The position numbers and the translations under genes were made by a program. Below, piece by piece: positions 3,753 to 36,251 of a stretch of 64,000 bases of DNA (its first letter is position 1; each line of letters begins with the position of its first letter). The notes under the pieces are model-generated. The model saw only the letters and a program-made list of their open reading frames with translations, had not been told where the DNA came from and did not search any database. The DNA is from Campylobacterales bacterium (GTDB taxonomy: Bacteria > Campylobacterota > Campylobacteria > Campylobacterales > QNZT01), in NCBI GenBank assembly GCA_024278835.1, contig JAJRSK010000068.1, forward strand, positions 1 to 64,000, read 5' to 3'.

Positions 3753-6101
3753 ATGAAAAAGCAATTAAAAGATGTAGTCTGTGGCATGGACGTTACGAGG
3801 GAATCACCATATAAAGAAGTTTATGAGGGTCAAGCATACTATTTTTGTTCGCAAAGTTGTGAAGATAAGTTTCATGCAGACCCAGTGCAGTATAGCGAGG
3901 TGAAAGAGGAGTGTAGTAGTTGTCAACCTCTCTTTACTGAGAAAGTACATCATCATGATACTCATACAACAAGCGATAATACAGAGGCGATGTATACTTG
4001 TCCTATGCATCCAGAGATACAACAGATAGGTCCTGGTTCTTGTCCCAAGTGTGGTATGGCACTAGAGCCTATGATAGCAACGGTATCTGATGGGGCAAAT
4101 GAAGAATTAATTGATATGACGCATCGTTTTAAGATAAGTGCGGTTTTGGCAGTGCCTGTGTTTGTTTTGGCGATGACTGCGGATTTGATGCCTTCACTTT
4201 TACCGGAGTGGTTGGCTATGAAAACAGTACAGTGGATTATGTTTTTTCTTGCCACACCAGTTGTCTTGTGGGGTGGGTGGCCATTTTTTGTGCGAGGGTA
4301 TCAGTCGGTAAAAACGTGGAACCTAAATATGTTCACCTTGATAGCTTTGGGTGTTGGGGCTGCGTGGTTATATAGTATGGTTGCACTCCTTTTTCCTCAC
4401 ATTTTTCCGCCTTCTATGCAGATGGAAGGTGGCGTAGTTGATGTCTATTTTGAAGCAGCGGCGGTCATCGTGGCATTGGTACTTTTGGGGCAAGTCTTGG
4501 AACTTCGCGCAAGAAGCCAAACCAATACTGCCATCCAGACACTTTTAGGACTTGCTCCAAATTCTGCGCGTATCGTGCGCGCGGATGGGAGTGAAGAGGA
4601 TATAGCACTAGAACATGTTCAAGTAGGGGATATCTTACGTATCCGTCCAGGAGATAAGATACCCGTGGATGGTGTGGTCAAAGAAGGCGAGAGTAATGTC
4701 GATGAATCGATGGTAACAGGAGAGCCTATCGCTATTTCTAAAAAAGCAGGGGATGCAGTGATAGGGGCGACGGTCAATACGACGGGTTCTATGCTGATAG
4801 AGGAGAAAAAGGTAGGTGCTGATACGCTCCTTTCTCAAATCGTTGAGATGGTCGCCTCTGCCCAACGCTCGCGTGCACCCATACAAAAGTTAGCGGATGT
4901 GGTCTCTGGGTATTTTGTGCCATTAGTGGTCTTGGTGGCTATATTGGCATTTGTGGGTTGGTATGTTTGGGGACCTGAACCTCGCTTGGCATATGCGGTG
5001 GTGAGTGCGGTGGCAGTGCTTATCATCGCTTGTCCTTGTGCCTTGGGTCTTGCAACGCCTGTCTCTATCATGGTAGGAACGGGTAAAGGTGCTAGCCATG
5101 GTGTGCTGATTAAAAATGCAGAAGCGTTGGAAGTCTTGGAAAAAGTAGATACCTTGGTGGTCGATAAGACAGGTACACTAACAGAGGGTGCGCCAAAACT
5201 CGTCACCGTCAAAGTAGAATCGGGTGTGGATGAAGAGAGATTTCTCTCTTTGGTGGCTTCATTGGAACTCTCTAGTGAGCATCCCTTGGCTGAGGCAATT
5301 GTGCAGGGAGCAAAAGAGAAGGGCTTAACACTTTACAAGACAGAGGCATTTTCTTCTATCACGGGGCAAGGTGTCAAGGGCAATGTCGATGGGGTTGAAG
5401 TGGCTATCGGTAATGTAAAGTTACTGGAGAGTTTAGGTATTAGACCTGAGGGAACACTCTTGGAAGCGGATAACTATAGAGAGGAGGGACAAACAGTGAT
5501 GTTAGTTGCTCTTGATGGTAAAGTAGGGGGCATCATCGGTGTGATGGATCCTATCAAAGAGAGTACCCATGAAGCGATAAAACAACTCCACAAAGAGGGC
5601 ATCAAAATCGTCATGCTCACCGGCGACAATAAAACCACCGCGCATGCCGTGGCAAGTCGACTGGGTATCGACCAAGTACAAGCAGAAGTCTCACCTGAAG
5701 AGAAATCTATCGTTGTGACAAAACTACAAGAGGAGGGTAAAGTGGTTGCGATGGCAGGAGATGGAGTCAATGACGCCCCAGCCCTTGCCAAAGCCCATGT
5801 CGGTATCGCGATGGGGACGGGAACAGCTGTAGCGATGGAGAGTGCAGGTGTGACTCTCATAAAAGGAGATTTAACGGGTATCGTTAGGGCGATAAAGCTT
5901 AGCCGTGGCACGATGAAAAATATCCGTCAAAATCTCTTTTTTGCCTTTATCTACAATGCTATAGGAGTGCCAATTGCTGCTGGTGTTTTATATCCAGTTT
6001 TTGGGATACTTCTATCTCCTGTAATTGCCGCTGCGGCGATGAGTTTCTCTTCGGTTTCGGTGATAGCAAACTCACTTCGATTACGGAATTTGAAAATTTA
6101 A
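3753..6101 (+). CDS. Copper-translocating P-type ATPase with N-terminal YHS and heavy-metal-binding (CPMHPE) domains
   Basis: VCGMDV...[11 protein letters not shown] (YHS/TRASH), [27 protein letters not shown] motif, [17 protein letters not shown]. Start taken at MKKQLKD. Confidence 0.93.
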
Positions 6102-6110
6102 ACGCTCTTT

Positions 6111-6380
6111 TTATTACTCCATCAACTAAATAGCTTCATAGTTAACGATTTGATTTTGCTTCATATCGAGGCAAAATCATGCAGGACTAACTGGTTAATT
6201 CAAATGATTTTAACGAAAATATGGAGCAAAAGCAAATCGCCCGAAGGGAAGCACTTAGAGGCACAAACTTCAGCACCAAAAAGTTTTGAATTAACCAGTT
6301 AGTCCTGCAACTTTTTGATACTAAATTTTATGCCTCTAAGTGCTTTTAACTATGAAGCTATTTAGTTGATGGAGTAATAA
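6111..6380. repeat. 270-bp element with a perfect 35-bp terminal inverted repeat and internal inverted repeats
   Basis: 6111-6145 is the exact reverse complement of 6346-6380; 6181-6204 of 6285-6308; 6249-6263 of 6331-6345; 6152-6159 of 6171-6178. Confidence 0.93.
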
Positions 6381-6408
6381 GCCAATAGATGAAGGTCTAT
6401 TGGCTTAT
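6377..6408. terminator. Perfect 13-bp stem hairpin, possible terminator
   Basis: ATAAGCCAATAGA-tgaagg-TCTATTGGCTTAT, immediately followed by a TATCATGATA copy. Confidence 0.5.
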
Positions 6409-6500
6409 CATGATAGCGACGACACCCATAATTATGACTCTGTAAATATACTTTAGTATAGTCGACTAAACTTATGTTATGTTTATACACTAAATAACAC

Positions 6501-6530
6501 TTGACAAGTATAGACTAAATGTTGTATAAT
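6501..6530 (+). promoter_or_regulatory. Sigma70-like promoter upstream of grpE
   Basis: TTGACA (6501-6506), 18-bp spacer, TATAAT (6525-6530), 28 bp upstream of grpE ATG. Confidence 0.7.
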
Positions 6531-6558: not shown

Positions 6559-7113
6559 ATGAGCGAAAAAGAAGAGCAACAATCAGCGCCTGAACAAGAG
6601 CCTGAGTTACATGAAGAAAATGAACTAGAAGAGGGTGAAACCGTCGAGGAACTCTCAGAAGTAGAAGTATTAGAAAAAAAACTCTCAGAGTGTGAAGATA
6701 AATATCTTCGCGAATATGCTGAGTTTGACAATATCAAAAAACGGATGGAAAAAGAGAAGTTTCAAGCTATTGGGTATGCACATGAACAGTTTGCAAGGGA
6801 TTTGCTTTCGGTGATTGATGCGCTTGACAATGCGTCGGCTTCTGTTGCAGATAGGGATGAGGTGACACCTGAGATGTTCACACAGCTAAAAGAGGGGATA
6901 GAACTAACTATCTCACAGTTTGGCAAAGTGTTTGAGAAGCATGGTGTTGAGTTGGTCACGATGGAAAATGGATTTGATCCAAACTTTCATGAGGCGGTGA
7001 TGAAGGTCGATAGCCCTGAGCATAAAGAGGGTGAAGTCGTACAAGTACTTCAAAAAGGGTACAAAATAAAAGATAGACTATTGCGTTCAGCGATGGTGAG
7101 TATTGCAAAATAG
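6559..7113 (+). CDS. grpE: Nucleotide exchange factor GrpE
   Basis: EYAEFDNIKKRMEKEK...FDPNFHEAVMKVDSPEHKEGEVVQVLQKGYKIKDRLLRSAMVSIAK; upstream of dnaK. Confidence 0.95.
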   Translation: MSEKEEQQSAPEQEPELHEENELEEGETVEELSEVEVLEKKLSECEDKYLREYAEFDNIKKRMEKEKFQAIGYAHEQFARDLLSVIDALDNASASVADRDEVTPEMFTQLKEGIELTISQFGKVFEKHGVELVTMENGFDPNFHEAVMKVDSPEHKEGEVVQVLQKGYKIKDRLLRSAMVSIAK

Positions 7114-33611: not shown

Positions 33612-34862
33612 CTACTTTAAAAATTGACTATTTTGGGTTAATATCTCTGTCAAGATGGTATTTATTGGTTTTTTTGATTTCTCTTTTAATAGATGATAAG
33701 TCTCCGTATCTCTCACTTCATGATTAAAAATTTCATTGGGTAAGTTTGAGTAGATATAGGTCCCTTGCTTGGTCACAATAGCATTTTTATTCCATTTGGC
33801 GACATAACAGTACGCTCTTTGGTAGTTTTTATCTAGTAAGTTGTTGCCGCAGGAGTAGTCTGAAGGGGGATTTTCCAGACCCAACAGTGTTAGTATCGTG
33901 GCAGGAAAGTCAAGATGCGAGGTCATTTTGTGGATAATTTTATGTGGGGTATCTGGAAGCTTGAGGATAAAGGGTGAATTGATTTGTGCTTTTGAAAAGG
34001 CTGAGTTGTGTCCAAAAAAACCATACTCAAAAAACTCTTCCCCATGGTCTGAACTAAAGAGTATAATGGCATCTTTGTAAAGTCCCTTTTTCTTGATAGC
34101 ATCAAGCATATCTCCAAAGAGTTTATCATCATAATAGATGGCATTTTTATAACTGTTTTTAAATTTTTCACTATTTTTTCTCTTAATTGTCAGATAATTT
34201 AATCCTCCGTTTCCTGCATTGGGTTTGAATTTGTCATATGATTTTGGATAAGAGTATCCATGAGGTGCATCTAAAAAAACAAAGCTAAAGAGAGGTTTGC
34301 TGCTATCGGCTTTTGCTATCCACTCTATAAATTGCGCACTGCTTTGTGCATCTTTTTGGTAGGGTTCACCCTCAAAATTATCCACAATGGAGTCATTGAC
34401 GCCAGAATAGACGGTCTGTTTAAACTCTGGCCATTGGGTGTTGGTGCTAGAGATGATTTTTATGTGATACTGTTTCTCTTTTAAGACTTGAAAAAAAACA
34501 GGCTCTTTTGCTGCGTGTAAAAAGTTAAACCAGTAGGTAGCATTGAGTCCATAAAAGAAAGAAAATATACCAAAGCGGGTGGCATCCCCTCCTGAGATAT
34601 GGTTTTGAAAATTGAGGGCATCTTTAGAAAAGTGCGTAATATTAGGTGCTGTCTCTTTATTTAAAATAGAGTTTCGTGCTGCATCAAACATAAAGATAAA
34701 GATATGCGGCGAGGGGCTATCTGCTTTAATCTTGATGGGAGATAGGGGGTAGTGGACTTTAGAATTTTTTGAGGCACCAACTAACATAGTCCAACTTTGA
34801 GAGAACGAGAAGGAGTGAGATGTGAGTAGAGAAATGTGAAGGACTCCCCGTAGGGAATGCAA
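33612..34862 (-). CDS. Sulfatase/phosphoethanolamine-transferase-like protein, N-terminus apparently replaced by repeat element
   Basis: IFIFMFDAARNSILNKETAPNITHF, FSSDHGEEF; no N-terminal membrane domain; first ~30 codons lie in the 34774-35032 element. Confidence 0.7.
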   Translation of the reverse strand: MHSLRGVLHISLLTSHSFSFSQSWTMLVGASKNSKVHYPLSPIKIKADSPSPHIFIFMFDAARNSILNKETAPNITHFSKDALNFQNHISGGDATRFGIFSFFYGLNATYWFNFLHAAKEPVFFQVLKEKQYHIKIISSTNTQWPEFKQTVYSGVNDSIVDNFEGEPYQKDAQSSAQFIEWIAKADSSKPLFSFVFLDAPHGYSYPKSYDKFKPNAGNGGLNYLTIKRKNSEKFKNSYKNAIYYDDKLFGDMLDAIKKKGLYKDAIILFSSDHGEEFFEYGFFGHNSAFSKAQINSPFILKLPDTPHKIIHKMTSHLDFPATILTLLGLENPPSDYSCGNNLLDKNYQRAYCYVAKWNKNAIVTKQGTYIYSNLPNEIFNHEVRDTETYHLLKEKSKKPINTILTEILTQNSQFLK

Positions 34863-35032
34863 ACATTTATCTGCACACAGATCGCTTCTTCTCGTTCTCC
34901 CCGAAGGGTGCGTCGATTTCGCCCATAGGACTGCGTTGGATTTTATTGAATTCGCTATGGCGAGTCCTGCAAAAATCCGCCTTGCCTATGAACGAAATCG
35001 ACGCATCAAAGATGAACTATGTTAGTTGGTGC
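34774..35032. repeat. 259-bp element with 27-bp imperfect terminal inverted repeats and internal inverted repeats
   Basis: gcaccaactaacatagtccaactttga (34774-34800) versus reverse complement of 35006-35032 (gcaccaactaacatagttcatctttga); 34801-34812/34889-34900 perfect 12 bp; 34911-34930/34985-35004 18 of 20. Confidence 0.9.
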
Positions 35033-36251
35033 GGTAATAGTATATGATAACAAAACTTACCCTCAGTAAATGCCTTGCCATAGAGAGAGAGCCCCCCTTT
35101 GATATCCAAGAGCGTATCTGACCAGTATATCATGATAGTTTCACTCTTTTTAGAAAAACGCATCATCTTTACCTCTCCTGTGAGATTTGACTCCTCTAAA
35201 TGCGCTCCTTTGAGGAGTTTTAGCATCGTTTGAAAGGCTACAAAGGCGGGGTATTTCTTGATGCCATCGCGGTTATCGACCAATCCATACCCCGGGGCGA
35301 TGAGTTGATGCCAATAGACTCTATCGACTTCTCTTGTACTGAGTGCGATGAGATAGTACTGTAACATATAGAGGGCGTAATCTTCAGGGTTTACACACTC
35401 TTTTTCGCTCGTAGGTGCGTAGGGGACGGTGTTGGAGAGTGGCCAGTTTGTTTCGGTGATGTAGAGTTTGTTACTGCTTTTGGGGGAGAGTATCATGATA
35501 GAATGAAGAAGATTTATTTTCTTTTTCAAGTCAAAGCCCATCTGTTTTCCCTCAGGAGCACCTCGTCTATCCACATAGAGTAAGGCAGTGAATATATCGT
35601 ACTTTAAAGAGAAAAAGTTAAAGAGAGAGCGAATGGTATAGTGATACTCAAAATCAATCACAGAGGAGCCTAAAAGCACTTTATCATGATAGCGTTTATC
35701 GCGTACTCTTTGGGCGACTTGATAAAGCTTGAGGTACTCTTTGATGGTATAAAAAGCCCATTTTTTACGGTTGATGGCATTGCCTATTTGAAATTTTTTG
35801 ATATGGGGAAAGGCTTTAAAAATCTTTTCTATATTCTCTTCAAAGAGGGAGAGGTTTTCGATGTTGTTTCTATCTTGGAGGATGTTTATCAAGATATCTT
35901 TGCCTTTAAATTTCTCGACAAAGGCAACATAAGCATCTAACTTCTCTATCTCCCAAAGTGGCAAGCGTATAAGCAAAGTATCTACGCCTAACTCTTCTAT
36001 CAGGGTAAGTGTCTCTTCTGGATTTTTATCAAGATTTACACCCATTGCAAAAAAGTTTTGGGTATCAATAACTCTTTTTTGTTGTAAAAAAAGATAGGAG
36101 AGGAGGATAAAAGGGGAGAGTATCACTGTGCTAAAGAGGGTGATAAGTTGGTCAAATATCGCTTTTTTATAGATACGCTTTTTAAACTTTTTATCTTTGA
36201 TGATGTGGGGCTGGTCTGAGAAGTTATCCCACTCAAATTTATCATGCATTA
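35017..36251 (-). CDS. TIM-barrel glycosidase-like protein
   Basis: Start taken at MHDKFEWDNF; ITETNWPLSNT, DRVYWHQLIAPGYGL; stop codon lies in the repeat element. Confidence 0.55.

Follow-up and report, generated by a model that had tools for sequence, protein, structure and literature searches.

The DNA analysed here (the window) is a stretch of 64,000 nucleotides from a Campylobacterales bacterium, in which copA ends at position 6101 and grpE begins at 6559. One repeat-rich element occupies most of the space between the two genes. To describe it and its relatives, we used two covariance models, R1 for hairpin A (built from 17 aligned copies) and R2 for hairpin B (from 16), both of which include the window copy and give rough E-values. 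The parts of the element, and a second copy in the window, are as follows.

6111 to 6380, no strand assigned: whole element with type I ends; the mobile unit is probably 6114-6377, between TA dinucleotides.
6111 to 6145, plus strand: left arm of the 35-bp terminal stem, the type I terminal repeat, beginning TTATTACTCCATCAACTAAATAG; pairing in 94% of cells.
6112 to 6113, no strand assigned: TA at the left edge, putative target duplication; most type I copies carry TA at each edge, where it is inseparable from the conserved repeat end.
6146 to 6239, plus strand: hairpin A, with an outer stem, the internal loop C-AGGC/AACG--G, an inner stem and the tip GCAGGAC..AATTCAA (R1, 92.2 bits, rough E-value 1.7e-22).
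6240 to 6248, plus strand: central mini-hairpin CCC-GAA-GGG, which closes the four-way junction; found in 24 of 24 elements compared.
6249 to 6345, plus strand: hairpin B, a distant inverted copy of hairpin A (R2, 95.7 bits, rough E-value 1.2e-19).
6346 to 6380, minus strand: right arm of the terminal stem, pairing with 6111-6145.
6378 to 6379, no strand assigned: TA at the right edge, putative target duplication (see the type I flank counts below).
34774 to 35039, minus strand: second copy with type I ends, the outer end of its right repeat lost; hairpin A at 34909-35005 and hairpin B at 34800-34900 (R1 and R2).

A sequence-only reading of this locus had described a perfect 35-bp terminal inverted repeat (6111-6145/6346-6380), a 24-bp pair (6181-6204/6285-6308), a 15-bp pair (6249-6263/6331-6345), an 8-bp hairpin (6152-6159/6171-6178) and no open reading frame. 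All four repeats are present in the window copy, and the element has no open reading frame of 80 or more amino acids. The 24-bp pair proved to be part of a longer 40-nt repeat (85%) and the 15-bp pair part of a 37-nt repeat (86%); the 8-bp hairpin is not conserved across other elements (60%). Compared with its own reverse complement, the whole element shows 67% identity, and R1 also matches the window's hairpin B on the opposite strand (50.6 bits, rough E-value 4.7e-11). The terminal stem, hairpin A, the mini-hairpin and hairpin B abut with 0 unpaired bases between them, giving a tight four-way junction.

Two further structures lie beside the element. A perfect 13-bp hairpin, ATAAGCCAATAGA/TCTATTGGCTTAT, at 6377-6408 begins within the right end and runs on outside it. 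An imperfect palindrome, ACTTTAGTnnnnnGACTAAACT, at 6450-6477 precedes the grpE promoter (TTGACA at 6501, TATAAT ending at 6530); a palindrome of this type was also found upstream of grpE in most of the relatives read, and it is probably where a repressor of the heat-shock operon binds.

Folded as RNA, the region reached -118 kcal/mol, against -48.9 +/- 4.6 kcal/mol for shuffled sequences (z = -15), and the opposite strand folded as DNA gave z = -17.5 against shuffles. The architecture of the family consists of a terminal stem of 33-36 bp, two imperfect hairpins of about 96-100 nt (A and B), the mini-hairpin and the four-way junction. The core measures about 204 nt (201-205 nt in nine tenths of the copies), and the repeat-to-repeat length of type II elements is 266 nt at both quartiles. 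Among 82 distinct hairpins aligned with R1, an alignment that holds mostly A arms and is fitted to the structure, 97.0% of cells were paired, 33 of the 34 pairs were changed on both sides, and the covariation score was 0.816, compared with 0.232 when shuffled and at most 0.15 when slid. The unpaired loop bases of hairpin A (C-AGGC/AACG--G) are nearly invariant (91-100%), and the stems between them are variable. As a second covariation test, we scored the pairs across the 111 other elements in a plain MAFFT alignment of 112 whole elements. Compensatory changes, for which the sequence-only reading had proposed to look, were abundant in the terminal stem (94% of cells paired, 1,318 doubly changed), hairpin A (97%, 1,025) and hairpin B (90%, 1,221), in counts that are not of independent events since the copies are related.

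The same reading had pointed out that the 15-bp and 24-bp pairs cross, and had raised a pseudoknot or alternative folds. The crossing is geometrically real and reflects the fact that each hairpin tip is an inverted copy of the other. However, the terminal stem, hairpin A, the mini-hairpin and hairpin B are nested in the conserved fold, and we rejected a pseudoknotted RNA: the crossing 24-bp helix was 77% paired with 108 doubly changed cells across the same 111 elements, compared with more than 1,000 in each nested helix. The near-identical elements L036 and L049 differ in that one of them has hairpin B turned round with respect to hairpin A, a flip of a single hairpin arm.

The element is not unique. 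The BLAST search proposed earlier found further copies: in its own genome, a truncated one (L002) and two solitary ends (L005, L006), and in 19 of 99 other genomes, diverged ones. With R1, about 14 elements were found in the own genome, and matches in 19 of the 23 genomes of its family and, patchily, in 86 of 250 sampled Campylobacterales genomes belonging to 30 of 73 genera. Contigs labelled Sulfurospirillum, Sulfurimonas, Nitratifractor and Campylobacteraceae are among the carriers confirmed by R1; the gene-less mobile element has spread through many sulphur-cycling Campylobacterales. One carrier lies outside the phylum, a contig of Lutibacter (Bacteroidota; L092). Its ruvC gene, beside the element, encodes a protein with 61-66% identity to those of the Bacteroides group and no more than 39% to those of Proteobacteria among the matches listed, so that a mis-binned campylobacterial contig is unlikely. 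Its end type, ACCTGAGTTCGAC, is shared with L055 and, but for one change, with L042. A scan of the genome-contig collection for exact element ends and a scan of viral contigs for the 21-base hairpin tip each gave 0 matches, and blastn against plasmids gave chance matches only. The open-access literature searched, a body that leaves aside most subscription papers, holds no description of the element.

In a tree of 112 cores, the end types cluster, yet there are 15 or more changes between them. Good support attaches to a type V copy that lies inside a type II clade and to the window copy, which neighbours the type IV clade. The copy at 34774-35039 has its nearest core in a genome from another family of the order (88% identity). 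Elements from different families of the order are intermixed on the tree, which suggests horizontal transfer. The same module stands behind several terminal repeats, and the structured passenger thus appears to have taken over ends from different IS lineages, although some of the end types may have diverged from a single repeat and not have been captured separately. We also considered whether the outer stems of L036, L049 and L052 are inverted-copied host flanks, and dropped the idea; when set against each other, they resemble diverged forms of a single repeat.

The suggestion that the element is MITE-like was borne out by the dispersed copies, by empty sites and, for the commonest end type, by target duplications and matching IS5-family transposases. 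When the joined flanks of ten elements were searched against the genomes of the family, several orthologous spacers were uninterrupted in relatives (for example, that of L033 in G008 and G019, and that of L048 in G022 and G004). The element is absent upstream of grpE in 19 relatives; for the window locus itself, a clean empty site is lacking, since the spacers in front of grpE could not be aligned across relatives. Type II, the commonest end type of the family, has 4-bp target duplications (including TTAA, TTTA, TATA, TACT and TAAA) in 21 of 51 copies, against 4.8 when shuffled (p <= 0.001), and its flanks show no excess of duplications at 3, 6, 8 or 9 bp. The TA of type I flanks, with 28 observed against 26.9 shuffled, is not separable from the repeat itself. 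The window copy is plainly a member of the element family and a candidate IS5 MITE, and its TA flanks are only suggestive of a target duplication. The family shares with MITEs its short length, terminal inverted repeats, lack of a transposase gene, dispersed copies and empty sites and, with type II ends, a 4-bp target-site duplication.

Terminal repeats of types II and V are common to IS5-family transposase genes. In the own genome, the exact type II end GGGCACCTCTAAAAAC lies 72 bp before an IS5 transposase gene (L168; NF033581, E = 1.8e-83), on a contig that stops before the right end would be reached; in G076 (L196), type II ends flank on both sides an IS5 transposase 64% identical to that of L168. 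A type V copy of the own genome (L068) has the end GAACCCTCTG, common to the other IS5 elements L197, L200 and L201. R1 found no core in these five IS loci (L168, L196, L197, L200 and L201), and thus the core is not a deletion remnant of those insertion sequences. For type I, no autonomous partner was found among the open reading frames beside 28 type I end loci or among the PF01609 transposases of 15 genomes, in assemblies that are mostly metagenomic and fragmented, so that long repeats and autonomous copies are hidden. The type I-rich genomes G163, G128 and G046 contain no PF01609 transposase at all; the type I enzyme may therefore be of another family or lost.

Shorter relatives of the element were also seen. 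Hairpins of about 50 bp, made of two type II ends without the core, occur in the own genome (L161, L172, L180, L188), some of them keeping matching 4-bp flanks; these are apparent deletion derivatives, and their occurrence indicates that the core is not needed for persistence. In G024 (L203, L212, L222, L227), pairs of type I ends lie only about 100 bp apart, several per genome, without the full core. In L159, L173 and L177 of the own genome, CTTAATGGCATTGA directly adjoins type II ends. This sequence is similar to CAATGCCATTAAGCTAAGCC, the end of an inverted repeat that surrounds another transposase in L379; here, two mobile elements seem to insert next to each other.

Repeats of this kind might serve an RNA fold, as a structured RNA or a cis-acting RNA region such as a terminator, an mRNA stabiliser or an RNase III site. 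The very strong covariation and the nearly invariant internal loops would suit such a role, as would the excess of G.T over A.C mismatches, counted on the A-first strand, in hairpin A (177 against 94) and the terminal stem (96 against 55). However, the bias is reversed in hairpin B (107 against 271), and such opposite biases, expected of inverted copies, favour no single transcript strand. The elements have no orientation bias relative to genes (26 with, 29 against), and 30 of 102 lie between divergent genes, in a gene context taken from open reading frames with genes called crudely. Furthermore, no Rfam 15 family was found (the best score was 35.7 bits against a cut-off of 110, with chance miRNA-like matches only), the element contains no promoter-like site and just one weak terminator-like site, and insertion polymorphism and target duplications also speak against this role. 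Of the structured RNA suggested earlier, the structure stands, with its very strong covariation, and nothing points to an RNA gene. We infer that a role at the DNA level is favoured, and we regard the RNA explanation as quite improbable.

A role as DNA could also mean that the element moves or acts as single-stranded hairpins through an HUH/Y1-type or similar structure-specific enzyme, in the manner of REP/BIME or attC sequences, the similarity to IS5 ends being secondary. Two imperfect hairpins, inverted to each other and with mismatches conserved as they are in BIMEs, a conserved interior behind varying ends, and type I genomes without PF01609 transposases are in line with this idea, to which we nevertheless give little chance: the 4-bp target duplications and exact IS5 end matches of type II are the mark of DDE transposition. 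Another explanation is that of an ordinary MITE in which paired changes arise by templated mutation, with no selection on the fold. Quasi-palindrome correction is an established mutational process, and nearly perfect, fast-varying stems are what it would leave. It should, however, also erase the loops and tip mismatches, which are the most conserved part (C-AGGC/AACG--G, 91-100%), and the fixed length and the single module behind different ends argue against it as well. This process may supply many of the paired changes, but the conserved unpaired loops and fixed length are unexplained by it, and as the whole explanation it is unlikely. Integron attC sites and retron RNA were considered and dropped by eye, as neither their boxes nor an adjacent gene were seen.

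We therefore consider it highly probable that DDE transposases act in trans to move the element, a non-autonomous transposon (MITE) whose interior is a conserved hairpin module. The direct observations are the dispersed copies, the empty sites, the type II 4-bp duplications with the matching IS5 transposase, the compensatory evolution, the fixed length and the changes of end type. The transposases, of the IS5 family in the case of the commonest end type, would recognise the outer 18 bp or so of the terminal repeats and would insert the element, which carries no gene, into AT-rich intergenic DNA; the window copy, with its type I ends and TA flanks, would move by a related transposase. Unusually, the interior of about 204 nt is not derived from the IS; its two long imperfect inverted-copy hairpins and its mini-hairpin form, with the terminal stem, a four-way junction without unpaired bases. 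The core may be selected because a protein binds the hairpins once they have formed, most probably in extruded or single-stranded DNA, given that copies lie in both orientations and whatever the surrounding genes.

A broader and more tentative proposal, which we think possible rather than probable, is that of a selfish module defined by its four-way-junction fold and not by a gene or by its ends, which persisted in Campylobacterales and crossed phyla by swapping terminal repeats, with a dedicated or host factor binding the fold and promoting the spread of the module. If this were true, a module defined by its fold would parasitise successive insertion-sequence lineages. The interiors of MITEs are usually disposable, whereas here the interior is conserved and the ends change. 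Since this interior has been kept by compensatory mutations over 30 genera at a fixed length, why a passenger transposon needs a fold becomes directly testable. Furthermore, the covariance model offers a way to locate hundreds of repeats, so far without annotation, that break up intergenic regions and promoters, and to annotate them.

Among known systems, ERIC and Correia/NEMIS are bacterial MITEs that fold as RNA, and the present element is likewise intergenic and hairpin-forming, with terminal repeats; no sequence relation to them was apparent without a direct alignment, and it is set apart by its two-armed four-way junction and an interior conserved throughout the order. BIME/REP elements, which are linked to RAYTs, have two inverted imperfect hairpins with conserved mismatches and are dispersed in intergenic regions, all of which the present element shares; it differs from them in its long terminal repeats, target duplication, DDE-type IS partner and hairpins of about 96-100 nt. 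With IS5-family MITEs, it has in common that it is short, gene-less, multi-copy and intergenic, with a 4-bp target duplication in type II copies and, for end types II and V, terminal repeats common to an IS5 transposase gene. However, its interior is unrelated to the IS and is conserved across the order and once in another phylum, and it combines a fixed length and compensatory base pairs with several end types.
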